In this document: piece by piece, positions 6,121 to 17,343 of the stretch
Layout: each line of letters opens with the position of its first letter
How positions within the stretch are numbered: the stretch's first letter is position 1
Assembly: GCA_031271905.1 (NCBI GenBank)
Contig: JAISUT010000053.1
Span: 1-61,673, forward strand
Reading direction: 5' to 3'
DNA: 61,673 nucleotides
Source of the DNA: Acidobacteriota bacterium
GTDB taxonomy: Bacteria; Acidobacteriota; UBA6911
The notes under the pieces: model-generated
The model's database searches: none
Told to the model about the DNA's origin: nothing
What the model saw: only the letters and a program-made list of their open reading frames with translations
Program-made: the position numbers and the translations under genes

Positions 6121-6441
6121 ATGAAGAAGTGGTCGAAAATCATCGCCGTCCTGACGTTGGCGCTCCTAGTCCAGGGCCTCGCCATCGGAACCGCCTCCGC
6201 CCAAGAACCCCAAGCCGGCCTCATCTACAATGGCTTGACCAACTCGGAGACCTCCCTATCCGAGGCCGCGAACATCGGCAGGGCGATCGGCGGCGGCTTG
6301 GGCACCATCGCAGGGGGCGTGTACGGCTTCTTCGTCGGCATCCCCACCGGCCCCGGCGGGGCGGTGATCACGGGGTGGGCGGGCTCCCTCGCCGGCTCCA
6401 CCGCAGGAGCCGTGCTCGGACAAGCCCTCGGGGCGTTCTAG
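6121..6441 (+). CDS. Small secreted glycine-zipper peptide 1 (bacteriocin-like candidate)
   Basis: A 106-residue peptide with a Sec signal peptide: a KKW.K basic start, a hydrophobic core and a TASAQ cleavage site near residue 29. The mature part of about 77 residues is very rich in Gly and Ala and has spaced small-residue motifs (GxxxG type, for example GGGLGTIAGGVYGFFVG), typical of peptides that insert into or oligomerise in membranes. An AAGGAGA ribosome binding site precedes the ATG by about six bases. It is the first gene of a run of nine same-strand genes. Class II or circular bacteriocin-like peptides are one possibility and outer-membrane glycine-zipper proteins another. No double-glycine leader for a C39 peptidase is seen. 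Confidence 0.6.
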   Translation: MKKWSKIIAVLTLALLVQGLAIGTASAQEPQAGLIYNGLTNSETSLSEAANIGRAIGGGLGTIAGGVYGFFVGIPTGPGGAVITGWAGSLAGSTAGAVLGQALGAF

Positions 6442-6513
6442 CCCGCATGGGGGGCGCCCCCGCAGGCGACTTTGACTTCTAACGGCTCTTAACCAGACAA
6501 AAGGAGATGAATG

Positions 6514-6831
6514 ATGAGGGACAGAACTTTCAAGCGCACCTTGACCGTCGCGGCGTTGGCCGCAGGCATGTCTATGGGCGTCGGCTTCGCTGGCGCCTTG
6601 CAAGCAGACCGGCCGCTGGTCGGCGCCATATTCGGATGGCTTTCGTCCTCGCCCTCAAGCGAGGCTACGGCGGCCGTCGTCAGCGGCGCCGCGACTGGCG
6701 CCGCGACCGGCGCCGTCGTGGGGGCTGCCGCAGGCACGGCCGCAGGCATGGTCGTCCCGGGCGGCGGCGCAACCGCATCCATGGGCGCGTTCTTCGGCTC
6801 CGTGATCGGGGCGGCATGCGGGGCGGCATAG
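6514..6831 (+). CDS. Small secreted glycine-zipper peptide 2 (bacteriocin-like candidate)
   Basis: A 105-residue peptide that shares its design with the preceding one, though its sequence differs. A basic start (RDRTFKR) is followed by a hydrophobic segment and a likely cleavage after FAGA near residue 27. The C-terminal half is an Ala/Gly/Thr/Val glycine zipper (AATGAATGAVVGAAAGTAAG-like, about residues 55-80) and it ends in GAACGAA. An AAGGAG at 6501-6506 favours the ATG at 6514 over the adjacent one at 6511. Two tandem small hydrophobic peptides ahead of membrane and export genes suggest a two-peptide product, but this is inference. The single Cys near the C-terminus is notable. Confidence 0.6.
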   Translation: MRDRTFKRTLTVAALAAGMSMGVGFAGALQADRPLVGAIFGWLSSSPSSEATAAVVSGAATGAATGAVVGAAAGTAAGMVVPGGGATASMGAFFGSVIGAACGAA

Positions 6832-6994
6832 CCGCCCACAGGCTGGGACGCGGCTTGCGCCTCGTCCCGGCCCGACCGATGCAACCCACCCTGCGCCTTG
6901 GGGCGTTTCGCCCCGGGGCCTTTTCCGAGGCGGGGGCGGTCGCCTCGCCCTCTCGCGGCGAAGCGCCGCACCCGCCGTCGAAGGTGTGCGCAGC

Positions 6995-7621
6995 ATGATG
7001 CCCCGGTTCCCGAGAAAGCCTGCGGCGCAGGCGTCCGTCCCGTCCTCACGCCCTCCGGCATGGCGGAGCTACCGGGCGGGGATGGCGCTGAACGCCGCCC
7101 TGCTGGCGCTGGCGCTGCTGGCAGGCTTCCGCTGCGGCGAGCCGGGCTCCATCGCGCCGTCGCTGCCGCAGATGCGGGCCCGGTTGTCGGAGGTCAAGGG
7201 GCGTGCAGCCCGAAACACGGTCCAGGTCGTCGGCAACAACGTGTCGGTCGGCGGGGTGTTGTCGCTCGCCGCCACCATGCCCCTCTACGGGCCTGCCGTC
7301 GCGACCTGGAAGCTGGGATTCCCCCTGGGCGCGCTCGCCCGTTCCATGATCGACGGCGTCAACCGGCCGTCCGCCATCGCCCTCGCGTTGCTGTTGCCGC
7401 ACGGCGTGCCCGAGTACGCCGGCTTCACGCTCATGCTGAACAGCGTGACCATGTGGCACTTCGCGCTCGCCGGCGCCTTGCGCGGCCGGCGTCCGCAATG
7501 GACTTCGCTCCTGCGTTACGGCGCGGCGAGCCTCGCCGCCGGATGTTTCGTCCTCGGCGCCGCCGCCGTCGTCGAATGTTACATAACCCCCGCGATCGTG
7601 GGGCTACTGATGGGTCTATGA
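6995..7621 (+). CDS. SpoIIM / DUF95-family integral membrane protein
   Basis: A 208-residue polytopic membrane protein. The family signature is visible: a VVGNNVSVGG-like segment, the PHGVPEYAGF motif (canonical 'PHGi.El.a') and a C-terminal AAVVECYITPAIV segment. DUF95/SpoIIM proteins occur in Bacillus sporulation, but homologues are also standard members of circular-bacteriocin loci (for example the DUF95 protein of the AS-48 group), where they are needed for production or immunity. That role fits here because two small glycine-rich peptides precede it. GAAGGTG at 6980-6986 supports the ATG at 6995; a GTG at 6986 is possible. Its stop overlaps the next start (ATGA at 7618-7621), showing translational coupling. 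Confidence 0.75.
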   Translation: MMPRFPRKPAAQASVPSSRPPAWRSYRAGMALNAALLALALLAGFRCGEPGSIAPSLPQMRARLSEVKGRAARNTVQVVGNNVSVGGVLSLAATMPLYGPAVATWKLGFPLGALARSMIDGVNRPSAIALALLLPHGVPEYAGFTLMLNSVTMWHFALAGALRGRRPQWTSLLRYGAASLAAGCFVLGAAAVVECYITPAIVGLLMGL

Positions 7622-8292
7622 CTATGAGAACGAAAGTCGGCTTCAAAGAATTCGTCTTCTCCCCGTCGTTGTTTTTCCGCGAGAAGGCGCAACTGGACGA
7701 ATACGGGCTCTGGGCGGTCTTGGCGATCATCCTGACATTCCTGGCTGATTTTGCGACCAAGGCCGTGCTGTTTTACAAAATCGGCGTCGCCAACGTCCGC
7801 TCCCCGGACGAATGGGCGGAGTTCGGAGGCGGCTATTTCGGCGAGGTGATCGGCCACCAGATAGGGCTGGGGCTGAAATACGCCTTCCTGCTCGGCGCGT
7901 TCTACCTGATCGGCCGCTTCATGGGGGGCGAACGGTCGCCCGCGAGGCTGGTGAACCTCTCCGGATACTGCTTCCTGCCTTGGCTCGCCGGATGCTCCGT
8001 CCTGACGCTCGTCTACGCCTTCGGGCTGGAGATCGGGTTCGTGGACTTCGGCGGCGACCTCCGGGGGCAACTCACGTCCCTGCTCATCGACAGCCCCGCA
8101 TATGTCGGGCAAAAGGTGGTCGGGTTCAACGCCTGGTTGTGGACTGCCGTGCTGGGCGCGGCGATGCTCGGCGCCTACTGGAAAACCAGGTTCTCCAAGT
8201 CGGCAGCCATCATGGCCGCCGCCGTCCTCGCCGTGACGGGGCTGGACAGGTTGGGCGGCATGGCGCTGCAATACGTCGGATGGATGCGATAG
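7618..8292 (+). CDS. Yip1-like multi-pass membrane protein
   Basis: A 224-residue protein with about five hydrophobic segments. It starts with FKEFVFSPSLFFREK, like the Yip1-domain opening 'P..ff.....', has an LSGYCFLPWLAGC segment in the middle and ends with a long C-terminal hydrophobic hairpin. Bacterial Yip1-like proteins are uncharacterised membrane proteins, sometimes found beside ABC exporters. The start ATG overlaps the stop of the DUF95 gene by four bases, so the two are co-translated and probably work together. No catalytic residues are evident. Confidence 0.6.
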   Translation: MTMRTKVGFKEFVFSPSLFFREKAQLDEYGLWAVLAIILTFLADFATKAVLFYKIGVANVRSPDEWAEFGGGYFGEVIGHQIGLGLKYAFLLGAFYLIGRFMGGERSPARLVNLSGYCFLPWLAGCSVLTLVYAFGLEIGFVDFGGDLRGQLTSLLIDSPAYVGQKVVGFNAWLWTAVLGAAMLGAYWKTRFSKSAAIMAAAVLAVTGLDRLGGMALQYVGWMR

Positions 8293-8377
8293 CGGCGAAG
8301 CCGCCATACGAGGGGTCGCGCGCCCCGCAAAGCGGCACAGGGGCGCGCAGCGATGGACGAACCGTCAGGAGGGGCAA

Positions 8378-10120
8378 ATGGAGATCGCATCGGGAGGTGG
8401 GAGGCGCGAGGCGTCGAGGCTGCGCCGTTGGCTGGCGGCGATATCGCTCGCGGTGGCGTGCCTGGCGCATCCAGGCTTTGCGGCGGCGCAGGGCGGCGGC
8501 GCGCAACGGCAGGCGGAGGCGTTCGCCGCGCGCTGGTGGGAGCTGGTCGCGACCGGCGCGGCGGCGGGTGGCGGCGCGGCGGACACCGCCGTCGATCCCC
8601 GCCGGCGGGTGGAGTTCGACCGGCTGGCGTCGGATTGGCGCGAGGCGCTGGCTGGCGTCGGCGCAGACGGGGCGAAGGTGCGGGCCCGGGGATGGATGGA
8701 CCGGCACCGGAGCCTCCACGTCGTTTTGGAGGCGGTCGCGGACTCCGGCGGGCGCGTGGCGGGCCCTGCGGGATTCACCCTGGAGCCTGACGGCGGGAGG
8801 CCGGTTGTCCGGGACGTGAGGGGACGCCCTTGGCTGCCCGCGCCGCCGCTCGCCGCCTGCATCCTGGTGCTGCTGTCCTACCTGTTCCTGCCCCCTTTGC
8901 TTTTCAGGGGGGTGTCCAGGCGCGCCTGGTTCGCGCGCCCGCCCAGCGCGGAGTCGTGGTCGAGGAGGCAGGCGGGCGTCCTCGCCTGCTCCCTCGGCGG
9001 GATCCCGAGCTTCGCCGCCTTCTTCGCCGGCTCCCATGCGGCGGGCGGCGCGTCCCTGTGGTTCGCATGGATGGCGTTCGCCTGCGGCGGGGCGATGGAC
9101 TCGTTCGAGGCCGGGTTCTCCATCTCCTTCCTCTGCCTGTATGCGGCGGGCGCCTTCGTGTTCTACCGGGGGTGCTTCAAGATGGCGCAGGGGTGCGCCG
9201 ACGGCTTCCGCAAAGGCTCCGGGCCCCCCCGTCCGCGCCGGGGCAAGGTCTTCGGCAACCCGATGGCGGTGCGGTTGCTCGTCTTGGCGGGGCTGTCGGC
9301 GGCCTTTCTGCCCGGGGTCATCCACCTGGTGCTGGCGGGCTCGGGCTCGGGCGCGCTTCTCGCCTGCCTGTGCCTGGCGGCCGCCCTCGTCATAGGGTGC
9401 CAGGCGGCAGAGGCCGCCATGTTCCGCAAGCTGGCGCACAAAGTCCTCGGCGACGACGACCCCGTCGTGCGGGGGGCGTTGGGCGTGTTCGGCAAGGTCG
9501 GCGGCGGCGCCCCGGCGAGGAAGGTCTACGTGCTGCCGGAGGACGTCTGGCCCGCGCCGAACGCCTTCGTCACCGGGTTCGGGCGCAAGCGCTGCGTGAT
9601 CGGCGTCACGGAGGCGTTGCTAGGGACGACCACCCCGGAGGAGACCGCCGCGGTGCTGCTCCACGAGTACGCCCACTTCTGGGAGCGGCATGTCGCGCTC
9701 CTGCTGGCGTCCAACGCCCTGCTGGTCGCGGGGGCGTTCGTCTTCTTCTTCGAAGGCGTCGGGTGGATGCGCGCGGCAGGCGTGCCCTATCCGTCGTCTT
9801 TGACGCACCCGATCCATTATTTCGCCTCGTTCGGAGGGTTCCTGCTGGCGTCGGCGTTCGTGATGCCGCGCATGTCCCGGCTCTGCGAGCGGCGGGCAGA
9901 CGCCTTGGTGCGCAAGCTGGGCGAGGGGGAGGCGTTGGCGTCGGCGTTGCTGAAGATGGGCGACGCCGCCAAGATGCCGCTCCGATGGCCGCGATGGCTG
10001 CGTTGGGCGATGACGCACCCGTCTTTCGAAGAACGGGTGGCGTTCTTGAAAGCCCGGCCGTCACCGCATCCGGCGACGCCTGCGGCGGTCTCCGTCAAAG
10101 GGGGGAGGGGCTGGCGATGA
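8378..10120 (+). CDS. Membrane-bound M48/M56-type zinc metalloprotease
   Basis: A 580-residue protein with a signal-anchor near residues 13-33, a soluble segment, a multi-pass membrane region (about 150-340) and a protease domain. The zinc motif HEYAH is at residues 429-433, followed by WERHVALLLASNALL. A downstream CERRADALVRKLGEG segment supplies the expected Glu (and Asp) of M48 gluzincins. The last 150 residues resemble M48 HtpX/Ste24-like C-termini, including the MTHPSFEERVAFL ending. A likely role is cleavage of the small peptides of this operon in or at the membrane, which is inference from context. A GGAGGGG sequence precedes the ATG. The stop overlaps the next start (ATGA at 10117-10120). 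Confidence 0.8.
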   Translation: MEIASGGGRREASRLRRWLAAISLAVACLAHPGFAAAQGGGAQRQAEAFAARWWELVATGAAAGGGAADTAVDPRRRVEFDRLASDWREALAGVGADGAKVRARGWMDRHRSLHVVLEAVADSGGRVAGPAGFTLEPDGGRPVVRDVRGRPWLPAPPLAACILVLLSYLFLPPLLFRGVSRRAWFARPPSAESWSRRQAGVLACSLGGIPSFAAFFAGSHAAGGASLWFAWMAFACGGAMDSFEAGFSISFLCLYAAGAFVFYRGCFKMAQGCADGFRKGSGPPRPRRGKVFGNPMAVRLLVLAGLSAAFLPGVIHLVLAGSGSGALLACLCLAAALVIGCQAAEAAMFRKLAHKVLGDDDPVVRGALGVFGKVGGGAPARKVYVLPEDVWPAPNAFVTGFGRKRCVIGVTEALLGTTTPEETAAVLLHEYAHFWERHVALLLASNALLVAGAFVFFFEGVGWMRAAGVPYPSSLTHPIHYFASFGGFLLASAFVMPRMSRLCERRADALVRKLGEGEALASALLKMGDAAKMPLRWPRWLRWAMTHPSFEERVAFLKARPSPHPATPAAVSVKGGRGWR

Positions 10121-11385
10121 GACATCGAATCCCCTTCGGGGCGGGCGGCGCACCGTCTGCGAAACGTGTAGCCGTCGCGGCGGCGATCCTGTTCGTCGCC
10201 GTCGGCAACGGCGTCTGGTGGCTCGCGTCGCCTCCCCGCACATCGCCCCCTTGGGCTGGGATCGCGTCCAGGCTGGGGTTCCCTGCGGCGGAGGCGGGCG
10301 CGGAGGGCTATGCGTTCTTCACCGTCGAGCGCGCCACGCCCGACATCTACGCCACCGGCGTCGTCAAGTCCGACCGGTCCGCCAAGATCAGCCCTCCCGT
10401 CTCCGGCGTCGTGCGCCGCGTCGTCCCCGAGCGCTTCGCGGCGGTCAAGACCGGCGACACCCTCGTCGAGCTGGACGACCGGCAGGGCGTCGAAAACCTC
10501 CGGCAGGAGCGGGTCAACCTGGAGGCGGCGCGCGTCCAGCTCGTCCAGGCGCAAGACCAACTGGGGCATCTGCAATCGGTGCGCGAAAGGTACGAGCAGC
10601 TTTCCGCCTGGGGCGCGGTCGCCGCCATGACGCTGGAGGAGGCGACGGCGAACGTCGCCCGCCAAGAGCACGAAGTCCGGCTGGCGGGGCAGCGGGTGGC
10701 TGCCTGCGAAGCGAACATCCTCTACCTGAAGGAGCAGGCGGGACGGACCAGGATCAAATCCCCCATAGACGGGATAGTGACCGACGTCTTCGTCACGAAG
10801 GGGCAGTTCGTGGCGCCCGGCGGCGGGAGCGACCAGGCCGCCACGCTCCTCGTCGTCAGCGACACGAGCGAGCTTTTCGCCCAACTGCTGGTGGACGAGA
10901 TAGACGTCTCCCGCATCAGGGTCGGGCAGGAGATCGAACTGAAGTTCGACGCCCTTCCGGACAAGCGCGCCGTCGGGCGGGTGCGCCAGATCGCCCCCGC
11001 GCCGGACAACTCGCAGGGGAAGCCGGGGGTGAGCTTCGAGACGTCTGTCGCCCTCGAGACGCCGGTGCCGGAGGTGCGCGTCGGCATGACGGTCTTCGCC
11101 GTGATGCGCGACGCACGCGCCACTCCGCGCCGGATCCCCGCCGGGGCGGTGCAGTCGCGCGGAGGCGAGGCCTGGGTGTGGCAGGAGGACGGCGGGCGGG
11201 CGCGGAAGAAGGCGGTGCGGGTGCGCGACTGCTCCGGCGGCGAATGCCTCCTAGTCGGCGGGCTCGAAGCCGGGGCGGTCGTCCTCGCCGGCCCCGACGC
11301 CAGGTTGCGCGACATGGTGGAAGGCACGCCGTTGGCGGCGCCGCGGCAGGGGGAGGCGGGGCATGTTGAAGATCATCCTCGATGA
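10117..11385 (+). CDS. HlyD/MacA-like periplasmic adaptor (membrane fusion protein)
   Basis: A 422-residue membrane fusion protein. One N-terminal transmembrane helix (about 17-36) is followed by a biotinyl-lipoyl half (VSGVVRRVVPERFAAVKTGD, about 105), a coiled-coil hairpin (about 125-205), the second lipoyl half (IKSPIDGIVTDVFVTKGQFV) and beta-barrel and membrane-proximal domains. These adaptors bridge an inner-membrane ABC transporter to an outer-membrane channel. The gene is translationally coupled to the protease (ATGA) and overlaps the permease start by 23 bases, so it belongs to the same export unit. No outer-membrane TolC-like gene is in the window. Confidence 0.85.
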   Translation: MRHRIPFGAGGAPSAKRVAVAAAILFVAVGNGVWWLASPPRTSPPWAGIASRLGFPAAEAGAEGYAFFTVERATPDIYATGVVKSDRSAKISPPVSGVVRRVVPERFAAVKTGDTLVELDDRQGVENLRQERVNLEAARVQLVQAQDQLGHLQSVRERYEQLSAWGAVAAMTLEEATANVARQEHEVRLAGQRVAACEANILYLKEQAGRTRIKSPIDGIVTDVFVTKGQFVAPGGGSDQAATLLVVSDTSELFAQLLVDEIDVSRIRVGQEIELKFDALPDKRAVGRVRQIAPAPDNSQGKPGVSFETSVALETPVPEVRVGMTVFAVMRDARATPRRIPAGAVQSRGGEAWVWQEDGGRARKKAVRVRDCSGGECLLVGGLEAGAVVLAGPDARLRDMVEGTPLAAPRQGEAGHVEDHPR

Positions 11386-12559
11386 GAGCTGCAAAGGGCT
11401 CGGCGTGCATCCGCTCCGAACCGTCCTGACGGCGCTCGGAATCGCCGTGGGCGTCGCCGCGATGGTGGCGATGACCGTGGTGCTGCAAGGGGCGTCCTCG
11501 GTGGTGCTGGACGCCCTGAGCGGGCTGGGCGCCGGGACGTTCTACATACTCCCCTCCGCCGACGCCGGACAGAAGGCGCGCGCCCCGCGCTTCACCGACA
11601 CCGATTTCAAGGCGATGCGCGAGGTGTTGAAGGACGAGGTGGAAGTGCTGTCGTTGATGGTGGAGACAAGCGACGTCGTCCTGCACCAAGGCGTCCGCGC
11701 CGCCGCCACGGTCATCGGCACCTCGCCAGACCTGCAAAAGGTGCAGCAGTACGAGCTGGGCGCAGGCCGTTTCATCGACGCACGAGACGTCCTCTGGCGG
11801 CGCAACACCTGCGTGGTCGGGGCGAAGCTCGCCGAGGAGCTGCGGTTCCCGCCCGACGGGACGTTCCCGCGCGTCCGCCTGCGCGACCGGGACTTCCAGG
11901 TCGTGGGCATGCTCAAGCCGCGGGGGCAGCGTTTCGGCGTGGACATGGACAGGGTCTTGCTGATCCCCCTGGAGACGATGCGCACGATCTACTTTTTCGG
12001 GGAGCAGCTTTCCGCGATCGGCAAGGTGCGCGACCCGGGGGCGCTGGCGCGCATCTCGGGACTCGTCGAGGAGAACCTGCGCGCCCTGCACATGCTGCCG
12101 CCGGACGCCCCGAACGACTTCCGGGTGCTGACCCAGACGGAGATCGTGGAGCGGCTGGAAAAGCTGACCTTGATGGTGGGGCTGGTGGGGGGCGCCATCA
12201 CCGGCATCTCGCTGCTGGTGGGGGGCATCGGCATCATGAACATCTGCCTGTTCTCGGCGATAGAGCGTACTCCGGAGATCGGCGTCCGGCGGGCGCTGGG
12301 CGCGCGGCGACGGCACATCCTGGCGCAGTTCCTGGCGGAGTCGCTGCTGATATCGCTGGGCGGGGGGGCGTTCGGCGTCGCGGCGGGGGCGTTGACGGGT
12401 TGGGCGCTGGCGTTGCAGGCGGACATCCCGTTCGACCTCTCCGCGTCGGCGGCAGGCGTCGGGTTCCTGTCGGCGGTGCTCACCGGCGTGGTATTCGGCG
12501 TCTACCCCGCCCGACGCGCATCGGCGACCAGCCCGATGACGGCGTTGCAACACCCGTGA
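11363..12559 (+). CDS. MacB/FtsX-type ABC transporter permease without an ATPase domain
   Basis: A 398-residue protein with the MacB permease layout: an N-terminal helix (PLRTVLTALGIAVGVAAMVAM), a large periplasmic domain (about 45-265) and three C-terminal helices. The 'GGIGIMNI....ERT.EIGVRRALGARR..I..QFL.E' block is the hallmark of the MacB/FtsX C-terminus. MacB proper carries an N-terminal nucleotide-binding domain, which is absent here. No separate ATP-binding cassette gene lies in this operon, so an ATPase must come from elsewhere or the permease works otherwise. It overlaps the adaptor gene by 23 bases. MacAB-like systems export peptides, which fits the glycine-zipper peptides upstream. 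Confidence 0.85.
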   Translation: MLKIILDESCKGLGVHPLRTVLTALGIAVGVAAMVAMTVVLQGASSVVLDALSGLGAGTFYILPSADAGQKARAPRFTDTDFKAMREVLKDEVEVLSLMVETSDVVLHQGVRAAATVIGTSPDLQKVQQYELGAGRFIDARDVLWRRNTCVVGAKLAEELRFPPDGTFPRVRLRDRDFQVVGMLKPRGQRFGVDMDRVLLIPLETMRTIYFFGEQLSAIGKVRDPGALARISGLVEENLRALHMLPPDAPNDFRVLTQTEIVERLEKLTLMVGLVGGAITGISLLVGGIGIMNICLFSAIERTPEIGVRRALGARRRHILAQFLAESLLISLGGGAFGVAAGALTGWALALQADIPFDLSASAAGVGFLSAVLTGVVFGVYPARRASATSPMTALQHP

Positions 12560-12574
12560 CCTTCTTGCAACCGG

Positions 12575-13930
12575 ATGGATGCCATGGCGAGGATTGATGC
12601 GTTGCACTCGTGGGCGGGGAGGCTGTCCGCGCCGTTGCTCTGCCTCGCCGTATTTTGCCGATGCGCGGTGCGGGGGGACGCGGCGGGTCTGAACCTTCCG
12701 CTGGCGGCGCTCATGGCGGGTTGCCTCGCGCTGGCGACGGTTTCCGGCAGGGGGGTGGCGCGCCGCGACGGCGCCGCCGCCGAGTCCGGCGCCATGGGCG
12801 TCGCGCTCGCGATCCTGGCGGGCGTGGAGGTAGTCTCCCACCTGCGGTCGCCGTACCAGCCGAACAGCTTCTTCGCGTTGCGGGAGGCGGCGTCGCTGCT
12901 CCTCCTGTTTTGTTTCGCGCGATCGCTCCTCGGCGACGCGGCGGCGCGGCGGCGCCTCTACCTCTGGATGACGGGGTTCGGCGCCGTCTGGGCTGGGGCG
13001 GACGCGCTCCGCTGCCTGCGGTCGCTGGCGGAGTTGCGCGCCCTCGGCGTCGGCGACCTGACCGCGTTCAAACAATACTTCTCCTACGGCTCGTGGACGA
13101 CGCAGGCGTTGCTGCTGCTCCCCTATCCGCTCGGGTTGCTGGCGGGTGAGGCTGGATCGGCGAGTCCCCCGCCCCGCGACGTCGGGGCGCGGCGGCGCAT
13201 CGCCCCCGAGGTCGTCGCCATGGCGCCGCCCGCCTTGGTGGCGGTCGCCCTCATGGTGGGGACGGTCTACTCCTTTTCGCGCGGCGCCTACGCGGCACTG
13301 GCGTTTTTCCTGCTCCTCGCCGGGGCGGGCCATGCCGCTTGCCGGCGGGCGCCAGCGCGCGGGCCAGCGCTCGCCTGCGCGGCGGCATGCCTCCTCGCGC
13401 TTGCCGCCACGCCCGTCATGCGGTCGGTGCTGGGCACGGCGTCCCTGCTTTCCACCGCGTCGCAGGTGCGGAGCTTCACCGCCCGTCAACGGCTGTTGGC
13501 GGGGGCGTTGCAAACGGCGGCGCGCGTCCCCGCATTCGGCGTAGGCGGCGGCAACTATCCGCTCGTCGCCATGGCGGGCGAGGGCGTGGCGGGCGCAGGC
13601 GGGGACTACGTCCCGACGCCGCTCAACCGCTTCGCGGCCACGGCGGTTGAAAAAGGGGTCGCGGGGCTTGCCGCGCACGTCGGCGCCTTGGCGCTGTTTT
13701 TCTCCGTGTCTCTGCGAAAGCTCGCCCGGGGGCGCGGGGGATGCGGGGGTGCGCCCTGCGGCGCGGCGGCTTTGATCCCCCTGGTCGCCGCCGTCGCCGC
13801 CGCCGTCGTCCATCAAATGTCGTATTATCCGGCGCACGGCGACGAAGGGGCGGCAGCGCTGGAGTGGGTGGCGTATGCCGTCGCGGCCAGCCTGCCCGTG
13901 GGCGATGGCGGGGACGGAGGGCGGCGATGA
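12575..13930 (+). CDS. O-antigen ligase / polymerase-like (Wzy_C, PglL-like) membrane protein
   Basis: A 451-residue polytopic membrane protein with about ten to twelve hydrophobic segments. The features match the O-antigen ligase / Wzy / PglL superfamily: a YSFSRGAYAAL segment (canonical 'SRga.la'), a periplasmic loop with FGVGGGNYP (canonical 'G.G.gnf') and then 'TPLNRFAATAVEKGVAG' (canonical 'HN.yL....E.G..G'). The usual His before Asn is replaced by Leu. Family members transfer lipid-linked glycans to lipid A, polysaccharide or, in PglL, to Ser of proteins. It starts 15 bases after the permease stop (an alternative ATG is at 12584) and its end overlaps the TPR gene (ATGA at 13927), so it is part of the operon. 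Confidence 0.65.
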   Translation: MDAMARIDALHSWAGRLSAPLLCLAVFCRCAVRGDAAGLNLPLAALMAGCLALATVSGRGVARRDGAAAESGAMGVALAILAGVEVVSHLRSPYQPNSFFALREAASLLLLFCFARSLLGDAAARRRLYLWMTGFGAVWAGADALRCLRSLAELRALGVGDLTAFKQYFSYGSWTTQALLLLPYPLGLLAGEAGSASPPPRDVGARRRIAPEVVAMAPPALVAVALMVGTVYSFSRGAYAALAFFLLLAGAGHAACRRAPARGPALACAAACLLALAATPVMRSVLGTASLLSTASQVRSFTARQRLLAGALQTAARVPAFGVGGGNYPLVAMAGEGVAGAGGDYVPTPLNRFAATAVEKGVAGLAAHVGALALFFSVSLRKLARGRGGCGGAPCGAAALIPLVAAVAAAVVHQMSYYPAHGDEGAAALEWVAYAVAASLPVGDGGDGGRR

Positions 13931-15048
13931 CGAAGGCCGCGCCATGGACGGTGTTTTTCTGCCTCGCCCTCTGGGCGGCGACGGAGGTCCGCCAACGCCG
14001 GGTCGCCGACGCCGACGCCATGTACCAAGCGGCGCTCCTGGCGCACAGGCGCGGCGAACTCGCCTTGGCGGACGAGGCGATGGGCGACGCCCTGCGCCTC
14101 GCCCCGGACAACGCCTGCTACCTGGCGTACAGGGGGTTGCTACGCCATCGCATGGCGGGCGCGACGGACGCGGCCGGAATGGTCGGGACGGGGGCGGGCG
14201 CGGCGACGCGAGGTGGCGCCTCCGCCGACCGCGAGAAGCTCAGGGCCGCGGCGGACTCCTACGAGGCCGCGCTCCGGCTCAGCCCGGAGGACGGGCTGTT
14301 CCACCACAACCTCGGGTGGCTGTATTTCCTCCTGGGAGACCGGGAACGCGCCCTCGCGCACCTGGAGGGGGCGGCGGCTTCGAGGTTGCGCGACCCGGTC
14401 TACCACGTCTCCCTGGGCATCGTGCGGGAACGGTGCGGCGAACCGGACGCCGCCGCCCGCGACTATGCGGAGGCCGTCGCGTTGTCGCCGGGCGTCTTGG
14501 GCTCCGACTTCTTCCACCAGTTGCGGGGGCGCGACGCCCGGATGGCGGAAGCGGCGGTCGCCGCGGCGGTCGCGGGGTTGGAGGCGGAGTTGAAGGCGAC
14601 GGCGGATCCGGTCGCCAAGGCGCGGCTGGGCGGGATATGCCTCGATTCCGACCCGGGGCGGGCGTTCACCCTGTTGCGGGAGGCGGTGGAGGCGCTGCCC
14701 AACCTCCCCCGCGCCTGGGGCAACCTAGGGCTCCTGCACGGCCGCAAAGGGGATTTCGCCGGCATGGAGGCGTGCTTCCGGCGCGCGCACTTCCTGGACG
14801 GGGACGACCCGCAGACCCTCCTCGGCATGGCGGAGGCATACGAGGCGAAGGGGGAGGGGCGCGAGGCGGCGCGTTGCCGCCTCCGTGCGGAGGCGCACGG
14901 CTCCAGGTCGCACTCCGCCCACGCGGGCAGGTTGACGACCCTGTATCGCGGCGTCCGTCGCATGGAGGACGACGACATGATCCCGCAAGGCATCTGGTCA
15001 TACTGCGCCCCGGCGAAGATGAAGCCGAAATTTGAAGCCGGCGACTAA
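13927..15048 (+). CDS. Tetratricopeptide-repeat protein, membrane-anchored
   Basis: A 373-residue protein. A short hydrophobic N-terminus (about 5-20) suggests a signal anchor. It is followed by TPR units, such as ADAMYQAALLAHRRGELALA, then a block around 110-170 with YEAALRLSPEDGLFHHNLGW, and two more near 245-320. TPR proteins often accompany O-antigen-ligase-like enzymes and act as their scaffolds or substrate adaptors. Translational coupling to the ligase-like gene (ATGA overlap) supports such a partnership. It is the last gene of the operon; the next gene begins about 100 bases later with its own ribosome binding site. Confidence 0.75.
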   Translation: MTKAAPWTVFFCLALWAATEVRQRRVADADAMYQAALLAHRRGELALADEAMGDALRLAPDNACYLAYRGLLRHRMAGATDAAGMVGTGAGAATRGGASADREKLRAAADSYEAALRLSPEDGLFHHNLGWLYFLLGDRERALAHLEGAAASRLRDPVYHVSLGIVRERCGEPDAAARDYAEAVALSPGVLGSDFFHQLRGRDARMAEAAVAAAVAGLEAELKATADPVAKARLGGICLDSDPGRAFTLLREAVEALPNLPRAWGNLGLLHGRKGDFAGMEACFRRAHFLDGDDPQTLLGMAEAYEAKGEGREAARCRLRAEAHGSRSHSAHAGRLTTLYRGVRRMEDDDMIPQGIWSYCAPAKMKPKFEAGD

Positions 15049-15151: not shown

Positions 15152-16825
15152 ATGATGGGCGGACAGGCGAAGGGCGAGGGCGGATCACGGGCGGGAATGA
15201 ACCGGCGCGGTTTTTTGAAAGGCGCGGCGGCGACCGGCGGCGTCGGATTGGCGGGCGGTTTGGGGATCATGGGCGCCGGCGCGCCCCCCGCCTCGGCGCA
15301 AGCGGCGGCGACCGGCGCCTGCCGCCCTTCCTGGGAGACGCCGCCCCCGCCGATCCCCGAAGGCGAGATCAAAGACACGGTGCGCACCGACGTCGTCGTC
15401 ATCGGCGCCGGCGCGGCGGGCATGGCGACCGCGCTCTCCGCCGCCGAAGGCGGGGCGAAGGTGGTCGTCATCGAGAAGATGCGCCAGTTCTCCGCGCGCG
15501 GCTTCGACGTCGCCGCCGTGGACAGCCGCCTGCAAAAGCAGATGGGGATAAAGATCGACGTGCCGCAGGCCATCCGCGACCTGATCAAGAGCGGCGACAA
15601 GCAGATCAAGGAGGAGCTGTACTGGATCTGGACCAGGCACAGCGGCAAGGTGATGGACTGGCTCCTGGACCAGGTCGAGCCCGAAGGACTGTACGCCAAG
15701 CTCTCCGACGCGCAGTACAAGGGGCCGACCTATTTCGAATACCCGGTCACGCACCACATCCTGGGCGGCCCGCACACCAAGGACGCCGCATTCTTCGACG
15801 CCATGGCCATCATGGAGCGGAACGCCAAGGCGAAGGGGGTCGATTTCCGCTACCGCGCCAAGGCCGAGCGCCTTGTCCGGGAGGGGAAGGGGCCGGTCGC
15901 CGGCGTGATCGCCGGCACCCCCGGGAACTACACCCGCTACCTCGCCTCGAAGGGGGTGGTGCTGGCGACGGGCGACTACGGCTCGGACAAGGAGATGCTC
16001 CGGCACTACTGCCCGATCGCCACCCTGGTGGACATCAACGTCTACACCCCCCTCGGCGCCAACGTCGGCGAGGGGCACAAGATGGGGCTCTGGGCGGGCG
16101 CAGCCATGCAGAAGGGGACGCACGCCCCGATGATCCACAGTCTGGGCGGCGCGTGGCCCTACTTCTTCCTGCATGTCAACAAACGCGGCCTGCGCTACCA
16201 GAACGAAGACTTGGGTTGCCAGGCGGCCTGCCTCGGCAAGATGATGCAGCCGGGGGGCGTCGGCTGGACGGTCTACGACTCCAACTTCATGAAGTACGTC
16301 CCGCAGACGCTGCGCATCGGCGGCGGCTTTTTCTGGGACAACCCCGACCGCAACGTAGGCGAGGAATGGACGCCGGAGGCGGGCTTGGAAACGTTGGAGA
16401 AAAACATACGGGAAGGGCTGGCCTTCCGCGAGGACACCCTCGAAGGGCTGGCGGCGAAGATGAAGGTTCCGGCCGACGCCTTGAAAAAGACCGTCGCGCG
16501 GCACAACGAGCTGGTCAAAAAGGGGGTGGACGAGGACTACGGCAAGCGCAAGGAGCTGCTGTTCCCCATCGACACGCCGCCGTTTTACGCCGGGTTGATG
16601 AAAAGCGCGCTTTTGGCGACCACCAGCGGCCTGCGCATCGACACCGGTTGTGCGGTGCTGGACGCGGACGACGAGCCGTTGGGCGGCCTGTACGCCGTCG
16701 GCAACGTGCAGGGCGACATGTTCGCGGTCGATTACCCGACCGTCTTCCCTGGCCTGAGCCACGGCCGCTGCCTCACCTTCGGACGCCTCGTCGGGCTCCG
16801 GCTGGCGGGAAAAGAATTGGCGTGA
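15152..16825 (+). CDS. TAT-exported FAD-dependent reductase (fumarate-reductase/flavocytochrome c flavoprotein family)
   Basis: A 557-residue flavoprotein with a twin-arginine signal (NRRGFLKGAA, about residues 17-26, then a hydrophobic core and ASAQA). The FAD-binding motif VVVIGAGAAGMATALSAAEGG lies near residue 80. The C-terminus has the 'FPGLSHGRCLTFGRLVG' block that places a His and an Arg near the substrate in this family. It is related to Shewanella fumarate and urocanate reductases and to Wolinella/Geobacter methacrylate reductase, which use unsaturated organic acids as respiratory electron acceptors in the periplasm. The heme domain is not fused but encoded just downstream. The actual acceptor cannot be read from the sequence. 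GGGAGG at 15141-15146 supports the start. Confidence 0.8.
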   Translation: MMGGQAKGEGGSRAGMNRRGFLKGAAATGGVGLAGGLGIMGAGAPPASAQAAATGACRPSWETPPPPIPEGEIKDTVRTDVVVIGAGAAGMATALSAAEGGAKVVVIEKMRQFSARGFDVAAVDSRLQKQMGIKIDVPQAIRDLIKSGDKQIKEELYWIWTRHSGKVMDWLLDQVEPEGLYAKLSDAQYKGPTYFEYPVTHHILGGPHTKDAAFFDAMAIMERNAKAKGVDFRYRAKAERLVREGKGPVAGVIAGTPGNYTRYLASKGVVLATGDYGSDKEMLRHYCPIATLVDINVYTPLGANVGEGHKMGLWAGAAMQKGTHAPMIHSLGGAWPYFFLHVNKRGLRYQNEDLGCQAACLGKMMQPGGVGWTVYDSNFMKYVPQTLRIGGGFFWDNPDRNVGEEWTPEAGLETLEKNIREGLAFREDTLEGLAAKMKVPADALKKTVARHNELVKKGVDEDYGKRKELLFPIDTPPFYAGLMKSALLATTSGLRIDTGCAVLDADDEPLGGLYAVGNVQGDMFAVDYPTVFPGLSHGRCLTFGRLVGLRLAGKELA

Positions 16826-16980
16826 TTTAAGGGTTGACGGCGGGAGATTTCCGTTTGAGAATTTACCGGTCGCCGTCGTGCAGACCTGACAACCGGGATT
16901 TGATGCGCGGCGGCTGGCGCGGTATCGGCAAGATTTTCGGAGTGGCCCCGGAGGAGAGGCCTCGAAAGGACGTTAGAAAG

Positions 16981-17343
16981 ATGCTGAAGAAAATGATCTG
17001 TTTCACCGCCATCGTCGCCTTACTCGGAATCGGGGCGGCCATCAGCCAGGAGAATCTGGAGACGAAGGCGCCCACCGCCGACCGTCACAAGGATCGCGGC
17101 GTCGCCTGCGGCGTCTGCCACGAGGGCGAGGAAGCGCCCACGACGGCCGCCAAGGCCGAGGCGTGCCTCATGTGCCATGAGTCCCTCAGCGCCGTGGGCG
17201 AGCGCACCAAGGATTTCAACGTGAATCCTCACAAGAACCACCTCACCGAGTCGAGCGACCTGGCATGCACGCAGTGCCACCAGGGGCACAAGGACGACAC
17301 CGTGGTCTGCTTCGGCTGCCACGCCGGCATGAAGTTCAAATAA
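16981..17343 (+). CDS. Small periplasmic tetraheme cytochrome c
   Basis: A 120-residue exported protein. A signal peptide (residues 1-22) is followed by four CxxCH heme-binding motifs: C43-H47, C62-H66, C96-H100 and C110-H114. Extra His residues (H35, H87, H90 region) can serve as distal axial ligands. Size and spacing match the small tetraheme cytochromes and the heme domain of flavocytochrome c3. It follows the TAT flavoprotein at 156 bases on the same strand and is its most likely electron donor, as in the two-subunit methacrylate reductases. Upstream in-frame codons are not needed, because the ATG at 16981 gives a complete signal peptide. Confidence 0.9.
   Translation: MLKKMICFTAIVALLGIGAAISQENLETKAPTADRHKDRGVACGVCHEGEEAPTTAAKAEACLMCHESLSAVGERTKDFNVNPHKNHLTESSDLACTQCHQGHKDDTVVCFGCHAGMKFK

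Follow-up and report, generated by a model that had tools for sequence, protein, structure and literature searches.

The 61,673-nt window analysed here, which is the entire contig JAISUT010000053.1 of an Acidobacteriota genome (GCA_031271905.1), carries nine genes at positions 6121-15048 that begin with two small glycine-zipper peptide genes, pep1 and pep2, followed by genes for a SpoIIM/DUF95 protein and a Yip1-domain protein. We read this locus as a secreted bacteriocin-like peptide system on a DUF95/Yip1 chassis, and we put the probability of this reading at roughly 0.58; cyclisation, killing, and immunity are putative. The locus is probably an undescribed Gram-negative relative of the circular-bacteriocin peptide-antibiotic systems. 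Most of their kit is present, and it is a variant of that type of system, not a new category. A preliminary description of this DNA had proposed a Gram-negative peptide system around DUF95, and the core of that idea holds: the combination of peptide, DUF95, and Yip1 genes recurs in other Acidobacteriota. The features of the locus are as follows.

6121..6441, + strand: pep1, 106 aa; Sec-type leader and glycine-zipper hairpin with a central PTGPGG turn; homologues lie upstream of DUF95 in other Acidobacteriota
6511..6831, + strand: pep2, 106 aa; pep1 paralogue, likewise with a leader and a glycine-zipper hairpin
6832..6985, + strand: stretch between pep2 and DUF95; its strong, GC-rich hairpins may act as an attenuator or partial terminator 3' of the peptide genes
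6995..7621, + strand: short SpoIIM/DUF95 membrane protein, 208 aa (Pfam); alternative GTG start possible at 6986
7618..8292, + strand: Yip1-domain membrane protein, 224 aa (Pfam Yip1, 48.1 bits)
8378..10120, + strand: M48 membrane zinc metalloprotease, 580 aa (Pfam); leader and an extracytoplasmic N-terminal part of ~120 aa
10117..11385, + strand: HlyD/RND-type membrane fusion protein (MFP), 422 aa (Pfam HlyD_D23/RND_mfp)
11363..12559, + strand: MacB_PCD+FtsX permease without an ATPase domain, 398 aa (Pfam)
12575..13930, + strand: Wzy_C (O-antigen-ligase-like) membrane protein, 451 aa (Pfam)
13927..15048, + strand: TPR protein with an N-terminal hydrophobic segment, 373 aa (Pfam TPRs); probably the partner of the Wzy_C protein

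All nine genes lie on the plus strand exactly where the preliminary description had placed them, with overlaps of 4 bases at 7618, 10117, and 13927 and of 23 bases at 11363; several of the genes are coupled by these translational overlaps. The operon is not one tight block, as the peptide genes and DUF95 are set apart by 163 bases that contain a strong hairpin. The 154-base stretch between pep2 and DUF95 folds with −93.1 kcal/mol (z −4.13), and 0 of 200 shuffles fold as well. Pfam bore out the proposed DUF95, Yip1, HlyD/RND, MacB-type permease, Wzy_C, and TPR assignments, and settled the protease, previously left between two families, as Peptidase_M48 (72.6 bits) and not M56. Its zinc site is intact (HEYAH...ERRAD). 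The DUF95 protein scores 29.6 bits against PF01944 (SpoIIM/DUF95; cut-off 26.9), and its counterparts in related loci score higher.

Each of the two peptides consists of a signal-peptidase-type leader followed by a glycine-zipper hairpin core with a P/G turn. The leader of pep1 has the n-region MKKWSK, a hydrophobic core, and A-S-A preceding QE, and entry of the peptides into the periplasm via Sec is plausible from these leaders. pep1 and pep2 are paralogous (local score 110, with shuffles averaging 48; 0/500 shuffles as good; Z 8.2). Both genes have strong ribosome-binding sites (aaaggag) and a GC3 typical for the contig.

Homologues of pep1 occur in f52, a family of another class, among a survey set of 396 Acidobacteriota genomes that includes the window's own (G000). 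Three f52 genomes (G152, G144, and G400, the last of which came to light later) share the gene order peptide, small membrane protein of 70-80 aa, DUF95, and Yip1-like protein; within the f52 genus, 3 of 21 species have this module. The G152 peptide matches pep1 better than any of 500 shuffles (Z 7.0) and the G400 peptide matches it with Z 5.2, and the GxxxGxxxGxxxGxxxG register is invariant across pep1, pep2, and the related f52 peptides. DUF95 is above the Pfam cut-off in G152 and G144, as is Yip1 in G152 (30.5 versus 28.6 bits). The 70-80-aa membrane protein, conserved between peptide and DUF95 in all three loci (L105, L089, and L091), has a weak DUF485-like match and is a candidate immunity protein; it has no counterpart in the window. 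We also noted that a stretch upstream of the peptide gene is near-identical between genomes (L089 ~11040-11150; L091 ~9000 and ~10900). In L091, this stretch is repeated before another leader-like open reading frame (ORF; 8530-9020), which would fit a mobile or shared regulatory leader in front of several small secreted proteins.

The linkage of these peptides to DUF95 is exclusive. A profile of the peptide family (A4), searched against the 396 genomes, gave full-length matches in G000 (twice), G152, and G144 only; the remaining matches were weak and partial and lay within longer frames (E 9e-5 or worse). All known full-length relatives of pep1 and pep2 (two in G000 and one each in G144, G152, and G400) adjoin a short DUF95 gene. 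Early peptide matches in G038 and G053 were rejected as larger glycine-zipper proteins. This linkage bears on the idea that pep1 and pep2 are ordinary periplasmic or outer-membrane glycine-zipper proteins (YMGG/17-kDa-like) in an envelope-maintenance operon. Sub-threshold Pfam Gly-zipper matches speak for it (E 0.25 for pep2, 0.024 for the G152 peptide, and 0.0012 for the G400 peptide, all under the cut-off). We nevertheless judge it improbable: pep1 and pep2 have no Gly-zipper match above the cut-off, no lipobox, and no additional envelope domain, and glycine-zipper proteins encoded away from DUF95 match them weakly and partially.

The same comparisons delimit the conserved part of the locus. 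Among the loci examined, the core is peptide, DUF95, and Yip1, and the window is the only one where genes for M48, MFP, permease, Wzy_C, and TPR stand with the peptides; hence, the proposed nine-gene unit is not supported. Syntenic loci with variable short peptides, which the preliminary description had named as the support to look for, exist for the peptide-DUF95-Yip1 part, and its opposite, synteny of the seven larger genes with no small peptide gene, was not observed. If unrelated membrane genes had come together by chance in a single transcription unit, the later genes would have no syntenic counterparts, as is the case beyond the first four, and the Wzy_C and TPR genes are probably a separate module. 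For the first four genes, however, the co-occurrence data contradict this, the peptide-DUF95-Yip1 order recurring in a distant family, and the translational overlaps couple several genes; we regard a chance assembly as very improbable.

A search of the 396 genomes with PF01944 divided the matches into housekeeping SpoIIM proteins, mostly from frames longer than 300 aa, and a small number of short, diverged DUF95 proteins. Upstream of short DUF95 genes in five further genomes (G108, G087, G378, G157, and G376), we found leader-bearing peptides unrelated to pep1 and pep2. First, G108 and G087, which belong to different families, have homologous peptides of 89 and 76 aa with two cysteines (Z 18.4), in the order peptide, DUF95, ABC ATPase, and ABC-2-type permease, with an additional Yip1-like protein in G087. 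Second, G378 has a third peptide type followed by Yip1, DUF95, ATPase, and permease. These three loci complete the minimal circular-bacteriocin set of precursor, DUF95, and ATP-binding protein. Third, a pair of hydrophobic peptides of 67-71 aa precedes DUF95 and a weakly Yip1-like protein in both G157 and G376, and the peptides of the two genomes are homologous (Z 20 and 24). All 10 peptide starts examined have a good Shine-Dalgarno site, and five of the loci checked have a stable hairpin 3' of the peptide gene. Scanning generically for small leader-like ORFs was unspecific, with matches at 35 of 324 random points and 8 of 30 housekeeping SpoIIM loci; the case therefore rests on homology between same-slot peptides of different loci. 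In L087 (G376:C73), the same strand carries several more leader-bearing hydrophobic ORFs (60-90 aa; 16391-17235) ~6 kb upstream of DUF95, possibly an array of related precursor peptides. Short DUF95-like matches in family f48 (L083, L085, L090, and L100) overlap other large frames.

We tentatively suggest, as a possibility well short of an even chance, that these loci belong to a phylum-wide and hitherto undescribed class in Acidobacteriota, in which DUF95/Yip1-dependent, Sec-routed ribosomal peptides from several unrelated precursor families would undergo maturation, perhaps including cyclisation, and release from a diderm cell. The window pair would be a two-component glycine-zipper member of this class with its ATPase acting in trans.

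The distribution of the locus is sporadic. The peptides, DUF95, and the Yip1 gene are absent from all nine other genomes of the window's genus that were searched, so that the peptide/DUF95 locus occurs in 1 of 10 and is accessory at the species level; it was probably acquired horizontally. MacB-type permeases and M48 proteases are ubiquitous in the same-genus genomes, yet only distantly similar to those of the window. A GTDB genome scan with the window DUF95 as sole query gave no match, and a second scan with an alignment (A2) found related loci in two metagenome-assembled genomes of Holophagales (VXZQ01000001 and VYDI01000028), which belong to the Acidobacteriota, and one from Thermoanaerobaculia (JAJDZH010000468). 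Plasmid and viral collections contained no relatives.

Circular-bacteriocin clusters are defined by a precursor, SpoIIM/DUF95, and an ATP-binding protein (PMC8534725, PMC8659200); DUF95 has been called class-defining for them, and Yip1 has been observed in leaderless clusters as well as circular ones (PMC11580447). In Firmicutes circular clusters, Yip1 is common, above all where a three-gene accessory ABC transporter is present; two clusters have an M48 peptidase near the precursor, and the cerecyclin cluster comprises precursor, DUF95, ATPase, immunity gene, YIP1, and the transporter cycEFG. The AS-48 plasmid pPD1 (NZ_KT290268.1) encodes SpoIIM followed by an RND-type adaptor, a separate ATPase, and a MacB_PCD+FtsX permease that aligns over its length with the window permease (E 4e-18). 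A 169-aa hydrophobic AS-48 protein was rejected as a Yip1 counterpart because it has no Yip1 match. The window thus shares with such clusters leader-bearing small hydrophobic precursors, a DUF95 gene beside them, and the frequent but not obligatory accessory set of MFP, MacB-type permease, and Yip1, as well as M48. It differs in its precursors, which have glycine-zipper cores and Sec-type leaders and are not PF09221 homologues, in having no nearby ATPase gene, in its diderm host, and in the extra Wzy_C and TPR genes. Two defining features, a PF09221-type precursor and an in-cluster ATPase, are therefore missing from the window, and the second of these is present in G108, G087, and G378. Leaderless bacteriocin clusters likewise pair a small membrane-active peptide with a membrane protein of the Yip1 family, but have no DUF95-class protein and no leader and come from Gram-positive hosts (PMC11580447). 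The preliminary description did not recognise the gene set as described, which is only partly right, as DUF95, Yip1, M48, RND-type adaptor, and MacB-type permease have each been reported from Firmicutes circular-bacteriocin clusters.

The transporter genes also depart from the preliminary description, which had proposed a MacAB-like exporter; a complete one is not supported. The permease matches MacB_PCD (104.9 bits) and FtsX (75.1 bits) and has no ATPase domain, and the MacB ATPase domain that marks a MacAB exporter is neither fused to it nor adjacent. Over half its length, the permease resembles the ADOP family (TIGR03434), acidobacterial permeases that often have no adjacent ATPase. The same genome encodes ATPases on other contigs; on one of these, at 3107-5303 of L166 (G000:C25, contig positions 37106-39302), an MFP gene overlaps a gene for a MacB-type ATPase and no permease gene lies near them, whereas the window has an MFP-permease pair without an ATPase. 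Because of the ADOP-like permease and this reciprocal pair, we infer that an ATPase acting in trans on the window MFP and permease is possible.

A bacteriocin-like mode of action would run as follows. Since hairpins lie 3' of their genes, pep1 and pep2 would be produced in larger amounts than the downstream gene products. Sec-type leaders would target both peptides, to be cleaved by signal peptidase and perhaps also by M48. In the inner membrane, DUF95 and Yip1 may serve in maturation or hand-over and in self-protection. The MFP and MacB-type permease, with an ATPase encoded elsewhere, would extract the peptides from the inner membrane or carry them away from it, for export, immunity, or both, and the mature glycine-zipper hairpins may insert into or assemble on competitor membranes.

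Several observations weigh against this reading. Neither pep1 and pep2 nor the related peptides match a bacteriocin model in Pfam or NCBIfam (no PF09221 and no uberolysin/carnocyclin), while the AS-48 precursor, as a control, scores 52.5 bits, and the pep1 and pep2 leaders are Sec-type, not double-glycine. The structure prediction for pep1 was of low confidence (pLDDT 58.7) and was not used for a fold search. An hhalign comparison of the DUF95 profile with AS-48 SpoIIM was weak (probability 3.5%), so that shared membership of the PF01944 superfamily is all that it shows and we claim no orthology. No ABC ATPase was found on the whole contig in a motif scan for ORFs with Walker A plus signature, or in the part read of the G152, G144, and G400 loci, and no immunity gene was identified in the window locus. 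Five short-DUF95 loci, three lone genes of family f83 and two others (L084, L086, L088, L094, and L096), have no such peptide. In the 9562-11162 stretch of one of them, L094 (G242:C199), the gene after the short DUF95-like one belongs to the YdeI/OmdA family (PF13376, which bears the name bacteriocin-protection). Finally, archaeal cassettes that combine DUF95 (arCOG01996) and Yip1 (arCOG02054) with diverged membrane proteins of small size and, in some cases, with ABC transporters of the SalXY type have been interpreted as membrane remodelling (PMC5898192).

These cassettes underlie the strongest rival, a membrane-remodelling or vesicle-forming cassette in which DUF95, Yip1, and the glycine-zipper proteins would together make up a structural complex bending or patching the envelope, with M48 in quality control and no antagonism. 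They resemble the window in having DUF95 beside Yip1 and small fast-evolving membrane proteins, sometimes with an ABC transporter, and differ in their archaeal host and in their interpretation. Yip1 and SpoIIM shape membranes in other settings, and glycine zippers suit oligomeric membrane assemblies. Nevertheless, the sporadic species-level spread, the unrelated peptide families in one slot, and the ATPase-containing loci fit arms-race cargo better, and the archaeal cassettes might themselves be peptide systems; we therefore think remodelling unlikely, at about one chance in a handful.

A contact-dependent system like Cdz, in which two glycine-zipper peptides would aggregate on the producer surface and kill on contact, is less likely still. 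Caulobacter CdzC/CdzD are paired glycine-zipper proteins that kill via type I secretion in a Gram-negative (PMC5380434), and the window likewise has two adjacent small glycine-zipper proteins, with invariant GxxxG repeats, in a Gram-negative host. Cdz, however, has an adjacent type I secretion ABC transporter (cdzA/cdzB), RTX-like leaders, and the immunity gene cdzI, and no DUF95 or Yip1. The window has Sec-type leaders and DUF95/Yip1 instead, with an MFP and no type I secretion ATPase beside the peptides or elsewhere on the contig, and its relatives in G152, G400, and G144 carry a single peptide per locus, not two.

The bacteriocin-like reading matters for where such peptides are sought. DUF95-based peptide systems have been reported almost exclusively from Gram-positives, predictions outside Firmicutes being limited to a few Actinobacteria, Thermotogae, and Chloroflexi. 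Our literature search found no link of circular-bacteriocin-type, DUF95-linked, or glycine-zipper peptides to Acidobacteriota, although it covered few subscription papers and the absence is unproven. If the reading is true, this kit, together with several new families of precursors, would make a largely uncultured diderm phylum a new source of membrane-active peptides, and the M48 protease within the operon offers a handle on which enzyme processes DUF95-linked precursors and on the roles of DUF95 and Yip1.

Beyond the Wzy_C domain (38.5 bits), nothing supports the peptide glycosylation that had been suggested. The Wzy_C and TPR genes (12575-15048, with a 4-base overlap) may be a split O-antigen-ligase/TPR fusion protein, possibly unrelated to the peptides.

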